From a virus, in IMG/VR virus record IMGVR_UViG_3300033429_000021, positions 1-20,352 of that record: a DNA stretch of 20,352 nt; one strand, written 5' to 3'. Both the position numbers and the translations under genes were made by a program. The notes beneath the pieces were generated by a model, which worked only from the letters and a program-made list of their open reading frames with translations, ran no database searches and was not told the DNA's origin. The first letter of the stretch is position 1. Each line of letters starts with the position of its first letter. Below, piece after piece: positions 2,002 to 19,582 of the stretch.

Positions 2002-3990
2002 CTAATGCTCTATTTCGCTATCTATTCCCAATAGTACAAATGGAAGCGGATTTTGTTGCGTTACTGTGACTTCAACTAATCTGTCTGTGTAACCAAATAG
2101 ATAAATCTCATGTATTCCTGTAAATGGAACGGGTGCGTCATCTAATACAACCGTAAACTGTCTATCACTTAAGTAATTTTGCATTACAAAAACGCCTAAA
2201 CTTTCATATAGGTTAAGTATAACACGATTCACTCTTTTACGCAAATTAACAATAGGCCCATTCTCTGAGCTGTCAACATTTAAAGGTAGTGTTTTGACTA
2301 CTACATCATAGTTTAATCCAACCTCTAAACTATAAGCGTCTCTTGTTATGTCTACATGATTTAAATCTGTTCCATCTATAGTAAATGTTGCGTCATCTTG
2401 CATAGAGTTGTCAGCAATTACTTTAAATGTATTATCTAATAAAACATCTTTGTAATTAGTTGTTACGCTTGTTACTGGAGTCCCTAGTGCTGAATTAGTG
2501 AATACTATATTATCTCCATCGAATACTATATTATCAACTCCATAAGTGATATTGTATGTCTCAGGGAGTATTCCTTCTATCTTAACATTATGGTCCGTAT
2601 AAGTACCTTCTGCAACACGCTCAATAAATACTTCTGAATTCCTTTTAACTAGAAAGTAAGTTTCTTTATCTACAACTGCAACATCTTCAAAAGTTCCTTG
2701 AGTTGTCCATTGTGTAAAGCCTCTTATTTCTTCGTGTCTCATTGAATTCATTACGGCGACTGTTCCATCAGTATTTACTACATAAACGAAGTCTGATAAG
2801 TCGTTAGAAGTTCCTTTGATTGTTGCAATAGAACGAACAGTTTTAACAATATGAGATGATATTAAAGAAGCATTAATTGATACATAACTATCTTCATTAA
2901 AGCTCCATGAGAATTGTCTTAAGTTTCTTCCTGACCTATCAATATATAGAGTTGCACCATCAATAGAAATAGGTCTTTCTTTAATTGCTCCGTAGCTTGT
3001 TTGTTTCAACCAACTAGAGTCTGAAGGAGTTATTAGCTTTGAAGAGTTGTAGAATTCTCCACCTGTTGTAAATACTTGCAAATGCCTACCTGAGAAAATA
3101 CCGTTAATTGCGTTATATTGGTCAGTATTCAATGTATCAAATATTGCTTCGTCTGGCTGTGCTGATAAAGATTTAAAATTAAAAAAGTCATTTACTACTG
3201 ATCCCCACATTGAACTTACTTTGTCTCGTGAACCTGCAAACCATAAGCGACCTTGATGAAAAGTAACTGTTCTTGGCCATCCTCTTGTTGCCGACCATGC
3301 GTCAGTTTGGCTTCCAATTACTTGATAAGAAGGAAAGCCTGATGAAATACTATAGTCTATCGTACTTAAATCTAATGTTTGCGCCACAAAACTTGTGAAC
3401 TTATAATATGTATAGTCTGCTCCATCGACATCATTATTATCATTATTGTATATTATGTCATTTGGCGATATAGTAACAGTTTGAGTTGCTCCCGTGTTTA
3501 CATGTTTTGGAGAAATATTATCCCAATTAAACTTAGGTATAAAGTCAAAGTCAATTAAAGATAATGCCCACGCTATATCACTTCCTTGTCTTTGTAGTTG
3601 CATAGGGGCATAATCTTCATGCACTAATATCATTGTATCTGCTGATTGGACTAAGTCAATATCCCTTATCACTTCAATCGTTGCATATGGAGAAGTTAGA
3701 GTTGCTTGAAGCACTCCATCTTTATATATCTTAACTATAGAAGGAGAAAATAATATTAAATAGCTTTGTGTAGAAGAAAAGACAAATGCTTCTATTCTTG
3801 AATCTACACCAACATAAGAGTCTTCTACTTTTTCAAGTCCTGGTCTTCTTCTTACTCCACCATGCGGAAGGATAACAACATTCTCTGCTTCTGCTAGTCC
3901 ATTGTAATACTTATTAATATCAATACGACCTTTAAGCGTAGGAGCTAATGCCCCCGCGGTCATATTAGATTGTATAAGTCTTGTTTTCAT
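2002..3990 (-). CDS. Tail tubular protein B-like (T7 gp12 type)
   Basis: A 662-residue protein that opens with a block common to podovirus tail nozzle or stabilisation proteins: an early NMTAGALAPTLKGR, then YYNGLAEAENV and HGGVRRRPGLE near residues 28-52. These proteins form the lower tail tube, contact the tail fibres and release DNA. The rest is rich in beta-type sequence with many Asp/Asn and Thr residues, as expected for a beta-propeller-like nozzle. No signal peptide or transmembrane segment is seen. Its ATG overlaps the stop of the tail tubular A gene by one base (TAATG), so translation is probably coupled. The length is somewhat under that of T7 gp12. Confidence 0.85.
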   Translation of the reverse strand: MKTRLIQSNMTAGALAPTLKGRIDINKYYNGLAEAENVVILPHGGVRRRPGLEKVEDSYVGVDSRIEAFVFSSTQSYLILFSPSIVKIYKDGVLQATLTSPYATIEVIRDIDLVQSADTMILVHEDYAPMQLQRQGSDIAWALSLIDFDFIPKFNWDNISPKHVNTGATQTVTISPNDIIYNNDNNDVDGADYTYYKFTSFVAQTLDLSTIDYSISSGFPSYQVIGSQTDAWSATRGWPRTVTFHQGRLWFAGSRDKVSSMWGSVVNDFFNFKSLSAQPDEAIFDTLNTDQYNAINGIFSGRHLQVFTTGGEFYNSSKLITPSDSSWLKQTSYGAIKERPISIDGATLYIDRSGRNLRQFSWSFNEDSYVSINASLISSHIVKTVRSIATIKGTSNDLSDFVYVVNTDGTVAVMNSMRHEEIRGFTQWTTQGTFEDVAVVDKETYFLVKRNSEVFIERVAEGTYTDHNVKIEGILPETYNITYGVDNIVFDGDNIVFTNSALGTPVTSVTTNYKDVLLDNTFKVIADNSMQDDATFTIDGTDLNHVDITRDAYSLEVGLNYDVVVKTLPLNVDSSENGPIVNLRKRVNRVILNLYESLGVFVMQNYLSDRQFTVVLDDAPVPFTGIHEIYLFGYTDRLVEVTVTQQNPLPFVLLGIDSEIEH

Positions 3991-4857: not shown

Positions 4858-5685
4858 CTATGAATTTAAGTATTTAACTTCGACAACACCCTCGCCGTCA
4901 ATAACAACTGAACCTGCTTGCCAAGAACCTACTGATAACCATGAAGACTTGTGCGCTACATAATCAACACGAGTTTGCATGTCAATACTTACTGCGTGAC
5001 CTATTGCGCCTTTATGGAATGCGAAACCTGAACGAACAGTTGTTGTAAGTGGAAGACCGCCTTCAGAACGACCTGAACCAATCATTTTCCATTTAAATCC
5101 CATGAATGAGTCAATTTCTCCTGCCATTAATAGACGTACACTATTGTAATCTTGACTTGTGATTGTTGAATCATTTAATAGTTGGTTTAATCCACCCTCG
5201 TGAATAACAAAGTATCTGTCTTCCATTGGTGCTTCTACTGCATTTAACTTTTTCGAAGCTGCTGTAATTGTTGCTAAATCTAGTGCTTGTGTTCCTGCAC
5301 CTACTGTATTTGTTGTTGTTGCCATTGCGTCAATGATTGACTGATCGTCACGTCTACCCATTGCTTTAGCAATAGTTTCTGCTAATTCACGAACCTCGTC
5401 AAAGTTAACCTCTGCTTGATTGTAAATATCTGTATACTCTGGTGCTTCATAACCAACTAGTGTTGCTTGTGGTAAAGTGTGTGCGATATCCATTGGAACA
5501 ACATCTGCTGATGGCCCCGTTCTTTGAGTTGCCTCACCTTTACCCATTAGACGGAAATCATACTTATCTCCGACAACTCCACCTCTAAACTTCACACATT
5601 CTCTAAGCTTCATTGAGCCTTGGTATGCGTGCTTTACTTCCGAGTCAAACTGCTCTGCAGCGACTGAACTTAAACTAACTGACAT
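4858..5685 (-). CDS. Major capsid protein
   Basis: A 275-residue protein that fits the coat protein family found with Bbp17-type and marine podovirus heads, which is expected to adopt the HK97 fold. Visible marks are FDSEVKHAYQGSMKLR near the start, VGDKYDFRLMGKG near residue 38, PQATLVGYEAPEYTDIYNQ near 72, and a long helix with ETIAKAMGRRDDQ. It lacks a clear cleaved N-terminal delta domain, and a separate scaffold gene lies upstream, which agrees. The ATG follows AAAGGAACTGAA. The gene has its own promoter-like site at 5845-5853 and a leader of about 150 bases, so it does not depend on read-through from the scaffold operon. Confidence 0.88.
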   Translation of the reverse strand: MSVSLSSVAAEQFDSEVKHAYQGSMKLRECVKFRGGVVGDKYDFRLMGKGEATQRTGPSADVVPMDIAHTLPQATLVGYEAPEYTDIYNQAEVNFDEVRELAETIAKAMGRRDDQSIIDAMATTTNTVGAGTQALDLATITAASKKLNAVEAPMEDRYFVIHEGGLNQLLNDSTITSQDYNSVRLLMAGEIDSFMGFKWKMIGSGRSEGGLPLTTTVRSGFAFHKGAIGHAVSIDMQTRVDYVAHKSSWLSVGSWQAGSVVIDGEGVVEVKYLNS

Positions 5686-5738
5686 TTCAGTTCCTTTATT
5701 TTAATTTAATTTCAATATTCGCTGTTGGCTTTGGGTAT

Positions 5739-5795
5739 CCCTGAACAATTTCAGGGGTCGCAGCATTTAGCTACAAACTCTAAAAACTGTTCAGG
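5739..5795 (-). promoter_or_regulatory. Coat-gene leader with competing hairpins
   Basis: In the minus-strand leader three segments share complementarity. Segment A (5788-5795) reads CCTGAACA, segment B (5750-5756) reads CCCTGAA, and segment C (5739-5747) reads TGTTCAGGG. B and C form a 7-bp hairpin with a 4-base loop. A and C can instead pair over 8 bases. Only one pairing can form at a time, which is the layout of an attenuator or translational switch ahead of the coat gene. No U-tract follows, so translation or RNA stability is a better guess than termination. Confidence 0.45.
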
Positions 5796-5844
5796 CTCGT
5801 GAGAGGTATCTGAAAATGTTTTATGTGTTTTAATATCTATAAGA

Positions 5845-5853
5845 AGTATATCA
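5845..5853 (-). promoter_or_regulatory. Extended -10 promoter for the coat operon
   Basis: The minus strand reads TGATATACT, matching the TGnTATAMT form of the other candidate promoters in the window. No clear -35 box is seen upstream. Predicted transcripts would start near 5838 and carry a leader of about 150 bases before the coat ATG at 5685. A separate promoter makes sense here, because the reverse-strand cassette cuts the coat operon off from the scaffold operon. Confidence 0.5.
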
Positions 5854-5877: not shown

Positions 5878-6038
5878 GTTATTCACATTCCTTTCACATG
5901 TGAATAACTACCTTTTGAAAATTGATATATTTTTATATTAACACATTATAGGGGTTTAGATATTCACATTAAGCTAACTTTTATGTGAAAAACATGTGAT
6001 TATCTTTTAATATATTTTTATATGAATGTTAATCACAT
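5878..6038. repeat. Cluster of TTCACAT half-sites (operator array or DnaA-box-like)
   Basis: Five exact copies of TTCACAT or its complement lie at 5882-5888, 5893-5899, 5898-5904, 5963-5969 and 5983-5989. Two one-mismatch copies (ATGTGAT 5994-6000 and ATCACAT 6032-6038) complete the cluster. The first part is a perfect inverted repeat with 11-base arms (5878-5888 and 5898-5908) and a 9-base spacer. Several copies lie 11 or 20 bases apart, that is on one face of the helix. TTATTCACA at 5879-5887 and its complement at 5899-5907 fit the general DnaA-box consensus TTATNCACA. The last copy touches the -35 box of the plus-strand promoter. The repeats are seen; the binding protein is unknown. Confidence 0.7.
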
Positions 6039-6066
6039 TGACACGCTTTAAAATTGCCGTTATTAT
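6038..6066 (+). promoter_or_regulatory. Near-consensus sigma-70 promoter for plus-strand cassette
   Basis: TTGACA at 6038-6043 is followed by a 17-base spacer and TATTAT at 6061-6066. This is the only full -35/-10 promoter I see in the window. Transcription would start near 6073 and reach the ATG at 6107 after about 34 bases. The -35 box touches a TTCACAT-like half-site at 6032-6038, so a protein bound there could block RNA polymerase. Confidence 0.75.
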
Positions 6067-6106
6067 ATGGGTATCTGAAAAGAAAAAACAAGCTAAAGGA
6101 TTGAAG

Positions 6107-6361
6107 ATGGAAATAGAATACACAATAAAGACTAAGATTCTAGATAAGGACAAATTAGTATATGTTGACGTACCCCTAGAGCATTTAGAAAATGAAGACC
6201 AAACAATTAGTGCTTTTATTATTGACTTTATGGAGCGTTATATGTTTGACCATTATTGTAGCTGTAGTTTCAATGAGTCTCAAAATCATTGCGATTGCGA
6301 TTGTGGAGATTGGGATTATGATTACGTAGTTGTAAAAAGGGAGTGCTTGGATGAACAATAA
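6107..6361 (+). CDS. Acidic Cys-rich protein, function unknown
   Basis: An 84-residue protein, first gene of the plus-strand cassette. I chose ATG at 6107 because AAAGGATTGAAG precedes it and because an upstream in-frame ATG at 6026 lies before the promoter. Residues 51-66 hold a Cys cluster (CSCS, then CDCDC), and the C-terminus is rich in Asp, Tyr and Val. The Cys cluster suggests metal binding, but no known finger spacing fits. The stop overlaps the next gene by 11 bases, so the two are co-expressed. I do not recognise a family. A reverse-strand gene within a virion operon suggests an accessory cargo gene. Confidence 0.75.
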   Translation: MEIEYTIKTKILDKDKLVYVDVPLEHLENEDQTISAFIIDFMERYMFDHYCSCSFNESQNHCDCDCGDWDYDYVVVKRECLDEQ

Positions 6362-6746
6362 ATACTCCCTAAACGCTGAAAGCTACGGCATATCAAAAGT
6401 GCAATGGAATATTATTAAAAAAGAAGCCGTTGACAATCAAAGAAATTCAGAGTGGATGAAAGATGTATATGACCTTGACCCTAAACAAACATGGTTCTTA
6501 TACGACATACTACTACAAGAGAAATATAACCACCTATACAAAAGGGAGAAGTTGGTTAATCCTAAAGTAGGTGATTTTGTTTATGCAAATTACGATGGTT
6601 TTGGACGTGGAGAGATTGTCAATATTTGCGAGACTGAAAACATTATGGCTGTGAAGTTTAAAGAAAGAAACTTTCCTACTTTATGCAGTAGTGTTGATGT
6701 GGTAACGATACATGATAATATTAAAAGAAAGATAACTAAACTATAA
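6351..6746 (+). CDS. Unknown protein with SH3-like C-terminal domain
   Basis: A 131-residue protein, second gene of the plus-strand cassette. Residues 1-68 are charged and probably helical (WNIIKKEAVDNQ, KQTWFLYDILLQEKY). From about residue 69 the pattern VGDFVYANYDGFGRGEI then MAVKFKERNF looks like a small SH3-type or Tudor-like beta barrel, a fold often used to bind nucleic acid or protein. That fold call is by pattern only. AGGGAGTG precedes the start, inside the end of the upstream gene. No enzyme motif or membrane segment is seen. Confidence 0.75.
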   Translation: MNNKYSLNAESYGISKVQWNIIKKEAVDNQRNSEWMKDVYDLDPKQTWFLYDILLQEKYNHLYKREKLVNPKVGDFVYANYDGFGRGEIVNICETENIMAVKFKERNFPTLCSSVDVVTIHDNIKRKITKL

Positions 6747-6927: not shown

Positions 6928-7635
6928 CTACCTTTGATTTAGTAACTTAGCACTATAATCTTCAACTATCTTTCTATATGATTTGTCGTTCATTTTTCTA
7001 TTACCATATTGGTCTTCTGCAAACTGTAAGTTATGCAACTCATCTTTGCTGTAAGTCTTTGTAGGTGCTGCAACTTGTTCACTCGCAGGTGGAGTTTTCT
7101 TACTCATCCCGATAAATGCTTCAAGAAGTTCAACGCCCCCTGGCTGATCCTTTGCTAAATCAATCAATTCTTTCATGCTGTCGTTTACTTCTAAATTAGC
7201 ACTTAAGAAATCATCTACGTTTTGTAGTCTCTCGTTAGCGTTAGGGCCTAAATCTTTTTTAACTTGTAGAGCCTGTGCTTCTTGTGCTTCAATGTTTGCT
7301 TTCTCATTGTCTAAAAGTGTAGTAACTAAGCTCTGATAACCTTCATTAGATAAGTTATTCTCTTTACCGAATGACTGAATTTGAGCAAGTAGCGGATGTT
7401 CGCTATTGTATTCAACGTCTGCTGACATACTGTATTCATCTGGACTCCCTGAAAAACTTCCGAATTTTGAATGTAGTTCTGTATAACCTTTTTCTAATTC
7501 TGAGATTGTCTTGTATTTTCCATTTGCAAAACTTGTTGCTATGTCTGGCTCTAGGGTAGGGTTTGCCTCTGGGTTAGCAGGCGCAGGTGTTGGAGTTGGT
7601 TCTGGTGTAGGGGCAGGTGTGATATTCTCACTCAT
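6928..7635 (-). CDS. Capsid scaffolding protein
   Basis: A 235-residue protein with a Pro/Thr/Glu/Ala-rich disordered N-terminus (about residues 6-30). Then comes FANGKYKTISELEKGYTELHSKFG (given in parts: FANGKYKTISELEKGY at 36-51, TELHSKFG after it), a block typical of T7-like scaffolds. The middle is long, acidic and helical, and the C-terminus is basic, which is where scaffolds usually touch coat protein. It should guide coat assembly inside the procapsid and then leave. AAGGACACGCA precedes the ATG. In most relatives the coat gene follows directly; here three opposite-strand genes lie between. Confidence 0.8.
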   Translation of the reverse strand: MSENITPAPTPEPTPTPAPANPEANPTLEPDIATSFANGKYKTISELEKGYTELHSKFGSFSGSPDEYSMSADVEYNSEHPLLAQIQSFGKENNLSNEGYQSLVTTLLDNEKANIEAQEAQALQVKKDLGPNANERLQNVDDFLSANLEVNDSMKELIDLAKDQPGGVELLEAFIGMSKKTPPASEQVAAPTKTYSKDELHNLQFAEDQYGNRKMNDKSYRKIVEDYSAKLLNQR

Positions 7636-8777: not shown

Positions 8778-9063
8778 TGTTTACTCCTTTTTCTATTTGT
8801 TTTAGTCTGTTCTTAATATCCATTACAAAGTTTGCTTGTCCTTGTTTGATACCTACTCCGATTTGTGTTGCGTTTGGTTGAGCTATCCATGTGTGAACGT
8901 ACTCTTCTAACCATTTATCTAGTAGTTTTTTACCTGCTTCTGTGTTAAACACTACTGCATATAGAGAGTTTTCTGATTCTCTCTCTAATAGTGCTTGCTT
9001 GTGCGCTTGTGCGTGTATGTTTTCAATAGCTTCCGAGTCTCTAGGGTCTATATTATCATGCAT
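8770..9063 (-). CDS. Bbp19-like phage protein
   Basis: A 97-residue protein. The stretch from YAVVFNTEAGKKLLDKW to VGIKQGQANFVMDIKNRL (residues 36-86) fits the small Bbp19 family named from Bordetella phage BPP-1, which is commonly coded right after the portal gene. The tested role is not known to me. The start overlaps the portal stop by 8 bases and has GAAGGAGAGG-like purines upstream (GGAGAGGGAA). The next gene overlaps its own stop in the same way, so all three are translationally coupled. Confidence 0.65.
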   Translation of the reverse strand: MHDNIDPRDSEAIENIHAQAHKQALLERESENSLYAVVFNTEAGKKLLDKWLEEYVHTWIAQPNATQIGVGIKQGQANFVMDIKNRLKQIEKGVNNG

Positions 9064-10588
9064 TTCCCTCTCCTTGTGCTGCCGCCATCGCTGCCATTTG
9101 CGCTTGTTGTTCTGTTTGAAGTTTCTTTTTCTCTAAGTCGCTACGCTTAAATGTCTTAGGCACTCCCATCTTGTCGATTAGATAATGAGGTAATGCTTCA
9201 ATGTTAACTTCTTGTTGCACTATTTCAGGAGGTAATCCTGCTAATAATTCCATAGTCTTCATTACTTGCATGATTTCGTCAGCGTCTTGCGCTCTAGCCA
9301 TTGGAGAAGTAAACTTAATAGTTATCTCTTTGCCATCTATTTTCATAGGCGCTAATTTACCAAGTCTTATTAAAACTTTCACTACTTGATTTAATAGTCT
9401 CTCTAGTAGTTCTGTTTGAAGTTTCCCTGTAGCACTTCCGCTTGTTGCTTGTGTATCTGCGTCACGAATAGACATTTCAGTTGCAGTTCTTACGGGTGTA
9501 TCTTGAATTGAACCAAATGGCTTACTAATCATTACAGTTCTAATTGATTCCTGTAAACGACTAATGTCATATTGAAGGACGTTATAATCTCCACCACTCA
9601 TTAACGGCGCAAGTGAAGGGTTACCTCTATCATTAGAACCAACGGGCATAACTGTTCCTGGCTGAAGCGTAACTGTGTAAGGATTGATTATTCCATCGTC
9701 TGTTGCTGTGAAGATTGGGTTAGCCGTAAATGCTGCGGCTCTTAAGTGATCTTCCACCATCTTATTTAAAGTTTTAATATCTGGTAATGCTCTCATTATG
9801 CGACCACGACCATAAACTTCGCCCGGTATTGTTGACTCTCTAAACACTACCCATTCGCTAGAGTCATCTTCTTCTTCAAGCAATACGTCTTTATTGTTCT
9901 CATCTAGTAACATAGTGATGTATTTACCTGTTTTCTCTTCTTTTACTACGCCTTCAACTAAGTTAACTTCTGGATTCTCTGCTAATTGTTGCGTAAGCTT
10001 ATCGTTAAGTTCAGCATTAGGCCATATATACTTAATATCTTGAACATTTACTTTTATCTCTCTCCATACTGTTTCAACTATTCCAAGTGCTGACTTCTCA
10101 ATAATAACTTCTGATAGAGAAACCGAACGGAAATTAAGAGCCGATTGAATACCGTCTCCTTCTTCAACGATGATTGAGCCTGTTGAGATTCCTAAGTCTA
10201 AGAAAGTCTCTTTAATTTGTCCATTGAAGTTCGAATGATTAATGTTGTGAAAGATTATGTCTGTAGCTTCTTCTAAATACTCTTCAACTGCTGTTACTTT
10301 TTCTTCTGGTATTTCACTACCTGCTTCAAGCATAAACCATTTACGCCATGCAGGAACTAACTGTGACTCCATTCTACTAGCATAGTCTTCAAGTGCATAC
10401 TCTGCTGTTGAATCATACACATACTCACGTTTCTTTTGTCCTGGGGAGAAGTGGTCAAATGTTTGTGACTCTGGAAGGGCATATCTGTAGCACTCTCTTA
10501 GATGTGATTCCCATTGAGCCTTTTTGTTTTGTCTAGCTTTGTTGATACGCTTGACCATTCTCTCATAATCAAATAATTTAGGTTGCAT
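9056..10588 (-). CDS. Portal (head-to-tail connector), T7 type
   Basis: A 510-residue protein that fits the T7-type head-to-tail connector family. Marks are WESHLRECYRYALPE near residue 26, EYVYDSTAEYALEDYASRMES near 54 (shown in parts: YDSTAEYALEDYAS), PAWRKWFMLEAG near 78, and FRESTIPGEVYGRGR near 248. The Gln/Ala-rich C-terminus is usual for the family. As a dodecamer it forms the vertex through which the terminase packs DNA. Length is close to T7 gp8. The ATG lies immediately before the stop of a 55-residue zinc-ribbon gene, with GTAAAG nearby. Confidence 0.88.
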   Translation of the reverse strand: MQPKLFDYERMVKRINKARQNKKAQWESHLRECYRYALPESQTFDHFSPGQKKREYVYDSTAEYALEDYASRMESQLVPAWRKWFMLEAGSEIPEEKVTAVEEYLEEATDIIFHNINHSNFNGQIKETFLDLGISTGSIIVEEGDGIQSALNFRSVSLSEVIIEKSALGIVETVWREIKVNVQDIKYIWPNAELNDKLTQQLAENPEVNLVEGVVKEEKTGKYITMLLDENNKDVLLEEEDDSSEWVVFRESTIPGEVYGRGRIMRALPDIKTLNKMVEDHLRAAAFTANPIFTATDDGIINPYTVTLQPGTVMPVGSNDRGNPSLAPLMSGGDYNVLQYDISRLQESIRTVMISKPFGSIQDTPVRTATEMSIRDADTQATSGSATGKLQTELLERLLNQVVKVLIRLGKLAPMKIDGKEITIKFTSPMARAQDADEIMQVMKTMELLAGLPPEIVQQEVNIEALPHYLIDKMGVPKTFKRSDLEKKKLQTEQQAQMAAMAAAQGEGNA

Positions 10589-18657: not shown

Positions 18658-18864
18658 TTATGCCTTTCTATTAAAAAATCTTCTTACAGCATAGCTTCTA
18701 ATTAGGCTTATTGCTGTAAAGTATGCACCTATTAATAAGTTATCGCTTAGAGGTACTACAATGTCAAAAAGTGGAAATACGAGTAATTGGCTTAGTATTG
18801 CTACGATATAGCCTATAAGTATGTTTATTGTGCTTTCTATTAGTGATTGTGTTTTAGTTTGCAT
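18658..18864 (-). CDS. DUF7220-like phage membrane protein
   Basis: A 68-residue protein. I chose ATG at 18864, which lies one base after the methyltransferase stop and has GAAGGAATG upstream; a longer in-frame version would run through the methyltransferase gene. The pattern is QSLIESTINILIGYIVAIL, then LVFPLFDI, then LIGAYFTAISLIRSYAVRR, shown here in parts. It is a two-span membrane protein of a family (DUF7220 as I recall it) that is widespread in phages and prophages with no known role. The C-terminus is basic. Confidence 0.75.
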   Translation of the reverse strand: MQTKTQSLIESTINILIGYIVAILSQLLVFPLFDIVVPLSDNLLIGAYFTAISLIRSYAVRRFFNRKA

Positions 18865-18865
18865 T

Positions 18866-19582
18866 TCACATTCCTTCAAATAAGCCAAAGTTTCCCTTGG
18901 CTCTCTCAACTCTCTCACAAGCCATTTTATGATACTTCTCATTTAGCTCATAGCCTACAAATTGTCTATCTAATTGGATACAAGCATTTGCAGTTGTACC
19001 ACTTCCCATGAAAGGGTCAAGAATTATATCGTTTTCATTACTACCTACTAAGATATGCTTTTTAATAAGTTCTAATGGCTTAACGGTTGGGTGGTCAAAT
19101 TCACTTCTTACTATACTCTCTCTATGTACTTTACTTTTAACGTCTGAAGCACCTTGAAACGTAGCACCTTTTTGTCTTATGTGTATGCAGTATTCTATAT
19201 TACTTATCCAGTTACCATTACATAATGGTGGAGCATTATTTTTCCACCACACTAAGCAAGTTGTAACATGACCTCTTGACTCTCCCCACTTCATTAAATC
19301 AGATATTTGTTTATTGCTACAAAAGACAAAAGCGTTAAATTTCTTCATTACTCGCTCCCATTCTGCAAAGTGAGCTTCTATATCAAAGCCACTTCCTATT
19401 GCTTCTATATCACTTCCGCAAAGCTTACTTAATGAAAATGACATACTTGACTTAGGGTCTGGATTTGTTGTATCAACTATATATGGAGGGTCTGTTACTA
19501 TTAAATCTATTGAGTTATCTGGGAGTTTTTTTATCAACTCTAAACTATCTCCTAAGTGAACTTTATTCAGAAACTCTTTCAC
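18866..19582 (-). CDS. Solitary DNA methyltransferase (beta type)
   Basis: A 238-residue enzyme that should transfer a methyl group from S-adenosyl-methionine to adenine N6 or cytosine N4. The catalytic DPPY is at 31-34, well before the SAM-binding FMGSGTT (191-197, in LDPFMGSGTT). This order is the beta class. HPTVKPLELIKKHI lies between them at 164-177. The start is GTG at 19582, with AAAGGAAGTTAA upstream. There is no restriction gene beside it, so it may protect phage DNA from host enzymes or act in regulation. The target site cannot be read from the sequence. Both key motifs are intact. Confidence 0.9.
   Translation of the reverse strand: MKEFLNKVHLGDSLELIKKLPDNSIDLIVTDPPYIVDTTNPDPKSSMSFSLSKLCGSDIEAIGSGFDIEAHFAEWERVMKKFNAFVFCSNKQISDLMKWGESRGHVTTCLVWWKNNAPPLCNGNWISNIEYCIHIRQKGATFQGASDVKSKVHRESIVRSEFDHPTVKPLELIKKHILVGSNENDIILDPFMGSGTTANACIQLDRQFVGYELNEKYHKMACERVERAKGNFGLFEGM

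Follow-up and report, generated by a model that had tools for sequence, protein, structure and literature searches.

Seven half-sites of the TTCACAT type are clustered between two divergent promoters in the DNA analysed here, an incomplete IMG/VR virus record of 20,352 bp (hereafter the window) in which the phage's own replication genes are not in view. We read this cluster as a control region that responds to host DnaA and serves both the capsid promoter and a divergent cassette of small genes, not as the phage origin, and give this reading a probability of about 0.58. Host DnaA probably helps to control the timing of phage shell production. The identity of the boxes, their clustering and geometry, their abutment on a promoter and their recurrence upstream of the head genes of unrelated phages are features of the sequence itself; DnaA binding, the direction of its effect and the host are what we infer.

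Exact copies of TTCACAT lie at 5882 (+), 5893 (+), 5898 (-), 5963 (+) and 5983 (-), and copies of ATCACAT at 5994 (-) and 6032 (+). The initial annotation, which had counted five exact and two one-mismatch copies of a 7-base word within 160 bases, located them correctly. Comparison of the word count with shuffled sequence also bore it out: shuffles predict 4.5 exact copies for the whole window, which has 10, half of them within about 110 bp. Seven copies of [A/T]TCACAT fall within 160 bp, a density unmatched in 1000 first-order random windows (best, 5), while the best clustering in 5000 random 400-bp intergenic regions was 3. The cluster is real and far beyond chance, and the shuffles rule out chance or base composition as the source of the array. 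The inverted repeat with 11-base arms is present and perfect (5878-5888 and 5898-5908), and two copies do extend to TTATTCACA. The claimed spacing of 11 or 20 bases held in part: start-to-start distances between the seven boxes are 11, 9, 61, 24, 11 and 34 bp, so distances near 11 occur, but a regular 20-bp period is absent.

The minus strand of the window carries a podovirus-like virion block that includes tail proteins. A plus-strand cassette of three small ORFs lies between the capsid gene and the scaffold-position gene, and the half-sites sit in the non-coding DNA separating the cassette from the capsid gene (Table 1). The description of the region as non-coding is sound, apart from an ATG at 6026 that was listed mechanically and falls inside it. 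Because that ATG lies upstream of the promoter -10, the first cassette gene probably starts at the in-frame ATG at 6107. Pfam and PHROG searches with the product of the second cassette gene gave no match. One half-site had been said to touch the plus-strand -35 box, and box 7 does directly abut the TTGACA hexamer. Relatives show an extended -10 like that on the capsid side whether or not they have an array. Box 6, although degenerate, has a counterpart at a similar position in the arrays of other phages.

Table 1. Features in and around the box array of the window (promoters are matches to the consensus).
Feature	Position	Strand	Sequence or evidence
Major capsid protein gene	4858..5685	-	phrog_3437, E 9e-51
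Capsid mRNA 5' leader	5686..5845	-	conserved, covarying predicted secondary structure
Capsid-side promoter	5845..5853	-	extended -10 TGATATACT, poor -35; consensus only
DnaA-type box 1	5879..5887	+	TTATTCACA; oriC matrix score 16.1
DnaA-type box 2 (weaker)	5890..5898	+	CCTTTCACA
DnaA-type box 3 (best match in the window)	5899..5907	-	TTATTCACA in AGTTATTCACAT; oriC matrix score 19.7
AT-rich repeat, copy 1	5922..5941	+	TTGATATATTTTTATATTAA
DnaA-type box 4	5960..5968	+	ATATTCACA; oriC matrix score 15.2
DnaA-type box 5	5984..5992	-	TTTTTCACA; oriC matrix score 16.4
DnaA-type box 6 (degenerate)	5995..6003	-	ATAATCACA; oriC matrix score 10.7
AT-rich repeat, copy 2	6007..6026	+	TTAATATATTTTTATATGAA
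DnaA-type box 7 (abuts plus-strand -35)	6029..6037	+	TTAATCACA; oriC matrix score 10.1
Cassette-side promoter	6038..6066	+	TTGACA 6038-6043, N17, TATTAT 6061-6066; consensus only
First divergent-cassette gene (probable start)	6107..6361	+	ORF listed from 6026; short match to the corresponding gene of L253
Second divergent-cassette gene	6351..6746	+	no Pfam or PHROG match; about 51-58% identical to homologs in L062, L253 and L269
Scaffold-position gene	6928-7635	-	
Head-tail adaptor gene	9056-10588	-	

The boxes were compared with those of bacterial chromosomal origins. Published DnaA boxes read HTWTTCACW in Arcobacter butzleri, HHATTCACA in Sulfurimonas denitrificans and TTWTTCACN in Wolinella succinogenes (PMC5043019). 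The TTCAC core (positions 4-8) is present in 5 of the 7 window boxes, three of which are NNATTCACA, and the other two have ATCAC. A scan of one genome per species across 84,980 species for three copies of TTATTCACA with gaps of at most 30 bp returned 102 stretches in many phyla. Those opened within the Campylobacterota (Sulfurimonas, Sulfurovum, Nitratiruptor, Nautiliaceae and Campylobacteraceae) were mostly the chromosomal origin, beside dnaA and ruvC or dnaN. Within seven Campylobacterota genomes, close pairs of TTATTCACA lie on the contig that carries dnaA, with one exception overall. In one such origin, that of a Campylobacteraceae member beside dnaA (L158:1500-1900), more than 10 DnaA boxes run at a spacing of 21 bp.

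A matrix built from 52 oriC boxes of seven chromosomal origins is almost equal to one built from 71 phage boxes of ten arrays. Since the origins were gathered with the same word, the oriC matrix is biased toward it, whereas dnaA adjacency and the positions outside the 9-base search word are free of that bias; at those positions the two sets agree as well (G before, 0.65 in oriC and 0.58 in phages; T after, 0.83 and 0.87). When the oriC matrix was run over the 20-kb window the four best sites all fell within the array, and at a score of at least 6 the array gave 7 sites in 160 bp, where 200 shuffles gave at most 4. In blastn searches against 397 Campylobacterota genomes, part of the complete relative G033 (35,947 bp long, carrying an end repeat of 114 bp) matched oriC through its array (E 5e-8 and 2e-5), and part of the window array likewise matches an oriC (E 3e-4). 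The array is denser than chance and equal in sequence to the boxes at Campylobacterota oriC. The DnaA-box identity and the link to this phylum suggested in the initial annotation are strongly supported, both by the chromosomal origins of the phylum and by the consensus in PMC5043019. The seven half-sites form a DnaA-box cluster of the Campylobacterota oriC type.

Like the oriC clusters of Arcobacter butzleri, Sulfurimonas denitrificans, Wolinella succinogenes and Helicobacter pylori (PMC5043019), the phage arrays are dense and AT-rich, are of the TTCAC core/TTATTCACA type and have neighbours 11-12 bp apart. Unlike them, they are located at virion-gene promoters and not at dnaA, and they come and go among relatives.

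Arrays of this kind were found in three relatives by capsid (L023, L039 and L107) and in phages with other capsids (L062, L253, L120, L096, L123 and L103); most of them lie immediately in front of head genes, with a divergent promoter on either side. The operator-like place between divergent promoters, already pointed out for the window, is supported as well and recurs in other phages. The genes downstream encode scaffold and capsid, portal or terminase, and the capsids belong to phrog_3437, phrog_212 (L062/L094, L120) and phrog_283 (L253, L096, L231, L257); the array of L123 precedes a portal gene and that of L234 a terminase block. The flank letters differ in L231, L257 and L234, which may infect other hosts. 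Upstream of the capsid promoter L023 has seven copies of TTCACAT, L039 has six and L107 a small cluster, many of them reading AGTTATTCACAT, which fits both TTATNCACA, the DnaA box in its general form, and the published boxes of Arcobacter butzleri, Sulfurimonas denitrificans and Wolinella succinogenes. Nine array phages have TTATTCACA within the array and at most one copy elsewhere. It should be kept in mind that the array phages were largely collected by word search and are a small fraction of the capsid relatives examined: 44 related-capsid loci were found in IMG/VR, most without an array. The array is lacking in L002, L003, L005, L016 and other relatives, and relatives of about 34 kb have at most one TTMTTCACAT.

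A box abutting a TTGACA-like -35, followed after N16-18 by a -10-like hexamer, is present in 8 of the 10 phage arrays (window included) and in 0 of the 7 Campylobacterota oriCs. Over all boxes this abutment has P of about 2e-8 if the cases are independent, although several promoters share descent; because some array phages have inherited the same promoter sequence, eight abutments do not equal eight independent events. An exact search of IMG/VR for the pattern TATTCACATTGACA-N16-18-TATNAT gave only four matches, two of which are known array phages. L062 and L253, whose capsids differ, share all eight box orientations and all seven spacings (24, 11, 24, 44, 25, 11, 15), and their boxes are 94% identical against 49% for the linkers (P 1e-10). 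In L120 and L096 the first five boxes follow a common pattern, with boxes 98% and linkers 68% identical. Read from the cassette side, the window array runs - + + - with distances of 34, 11 and 24, which on informal comparison resembles L062/L253 (24, 11, 24) and L120/L096 (25, 12, 23); on that comparison the two degenerate copies of the window take up places in the pattern. The eight boxes of L023 all run in one direction. The virion-gene side of the arrays carries an extended -10 of the TATGNTATAAT type. A box at a fixed position relative to the promoter is found on the cassette side (8/10 arrays). Toward the capsid gene, phages differ in how far the nearest box lies from the -10, unlike what a classical activator site would show.

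L253 has counterparts of the first two cassette genes of the window and L062 of the second, each preceding different head genes. L269 has the second cassette gene and the head genes with zero boxes, and several array phages lack the gene, so a cassette protein was rejected as the general reader of the array. The AT-rich word TATATTTTTATAT, present in each of the two AT-rich repeats of the window array, occurs once in L269 at the corresponding place (3851-3863).

No phage DnaA or DnaA domain IV was found in the array phages with models from five host DnaA proteins, which did find the controls. Likewise, the six array phages examined, among which the window and some others are incomplete records, have no protein in common. 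A host protein is therefore the simplest reader of the array. That spacing is under selection and that a promoter is abutted both suggest a protein complex with an effect on transcription. Close relatives do without the array, so capsid expression in general does not depend on it. Under the preferred reading, control of the two promoters by host DnaA, the protein would bind the seven-box cluster as an oligomer and set the activity of both. The box abutting TTGACA would place DnaA against RNA polymerase at the cassette promoter, with activation or occlusion as the outcome, and the boxes upstream of the capsid promoter, with its poor -35, would recruit or exclude polymerase. Shell production would then follow the level or nucleotide state of host DnaA.

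DnaA is known as an activator or repressor of transcription, including at ori-lambda, where it acts through RpoB (PMC8203912). As at ori-lambda and the nrdAB and dnaA promoters of E. coli, where DnaA activates or represses (PMC8203912), the boxes of the arrays are near promoters. In lambda, DnaA acts on replication-linked transcription (PMC8203912), whereas here seven or eight boxes lie between divergent capsid and small-gene promoters. For the broader proposition, that Campylobacterota phages with unrelated capsids share a mobile control region whose oriC-like box array of fixed geometry, bound by host DnaA, switches capsid genes and cassette and so ties assembly to the host initiation state, we would put the odds at about even.

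Several other readings were weighed. The arrays might be a sink, in which the phage copies, multiplied by seven or eight boxes, titrate host DnaA and the place in the genome matters little; under titration, initiation of the host chromosome would slow down and replication proteins would become available to the phage. The boxes are of consensus type and probably of high affinity, the array is gained and lost as an accessory, and there is a precedent in E. coli, in which multicopy DnaA boxes titrate DnaA (Hansen 1987, cited in PMC8203912). The array resembles datA-like and multicopy titration sites in being a cluster of consensus boxes. It differs from them in that spacing, orientation and promoter contact are conserved; a sink needs neither conserved spacings and orientation nor a box abutting a -35, and it does not need a place upstream of head genes. 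We regard a sink as unlikely in itself; titration could possibly act together with regulation.

The DnaA-dependent replication start proposed in the initial annotation, at which host DnaA would open the phage DNA and load the replisome of the host, is quite unlikely for the array. The boxes are the same as in chromosomal oriC and similarly dense, the window array contains AT-rich repeats, and duplex stability is low near several arrays. However, the array does not persist in close relatives as an oriC-type element would, being absent from L002, whose capsid protein is 93% identical, and L269 is without boxes. In the complete relative G033, the gene for a lambda-O-like initiator contains four iteron-like copies at intervals of 22-33 bp (L047:1558-1652), 16 kb from the array, and this site is the probable phage origin; iterons were found in G033 only. 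GC skew in G033 shows no lasting sign change at the array, which says little because its long ORFs lie almost all on one strand. The DnaA-trio is absent in the ten phage arrays, a weak argument given that a trio was seen in only 1 of 6 oriCs scanned.

An operator array for a phage-encoded regulator that uses the recognition word of DnaA is very unlikely. Some phage operators are multiple, and the array is flanked by divergent promoters as such an operator would be. Against this, the word and its flanks equal those of oriC boxes, the direct repeats and their variable spacing fit a protein that binds as a monomer, as DnaA does, better than they fit a dimeric repressor, and a shared DNA-binding protein was not found among the six array phages (some of them incomplete records), which also makes the dense repressor array first suggested, as a site for a phage protein, less likely. 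A site for a CRP/FNR-type host regulator is extremely improbable: TGTGA/TCACA are the letters of CRP half-sites, but no TGTGA-N6-TCACA palindrome was seen when the array was searched for CRP/FNR-type palindromes, the boxes of L023 are unidirectional, and the match extends to GTTATTCACAT.

The host is likely a member of the Campylobacterota, to judge by the box type and by blastn matches. With blastn at E of at most 1e-4, matches were obtained in 28 of 397 Campylobacterota genomes and in 9 of 536 genomes from the phyla of Clostridium and Bacteroidales (P 5e-5), an excess that comes partly from the methyltransferase gene and from AT content and base composition. About 400 Campylobacterota genomes gave no convincing CRISPR spacer or prophage match; they returned only short DNA matches, the match to oriC, a single weak match to the portal and homologs of the methyltransferase. 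The region 18658-19582 contains a small gene and a DNA methyltransferase, and the neighbouring DNA matches Campylobacterota genome G186 with the order kept. No relatives were found at the DNA level among named phages, and the named relatives of the virion proteins are distant.

Action of DnaA on transcription, also at ori-lambda, is already known (PMC8203912). The papers searched contained no oriC-like DnaA-box arrays at phage late promoters or before the capsid genes of several phage types. If the reading is true, phages would read the host replication state to time their late genes, or draw DnaA off oriC. The array may also serve as a simple signature in sequence data for linking uncultured phages with hosts in the Campylobacterota. 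The re-used arrays with conserved spacing form a natural set for the study of DnaA oligomers on promoters.

Arrays are not confined to this position. In the T7-like L073, L075, L089 and L124 and the N4-like L121 they are not directly before capsid genes, and those on the T7-like contigs may serve another role. The TTATTCACA arrays of L073, L075, L089 and L124 are set in long stretches of non-coding DNA; a gene of about 190 aa recurs nearby, and its L074 copy gave no PHROG match.

The capsid leader of the window is conserved in L002-L039. Over 25 relatives, compensatory changes were present in 10 of 11 predicted pairs, and a search of Rfam with the leader gave no match; this phage group probably has here a structured RNA that has not been described before. 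The cassette leader GGTATCTGAAAA (6070-6081, plus strand) is the exact reverse complement of TTTTCAGATACC (5805-5816) in the conserved stem of the capsid leader, a possible 12-nt antisense contact between the two leaders, or chance. The same cassette leader occurs in L253, beside a different capsid gene.
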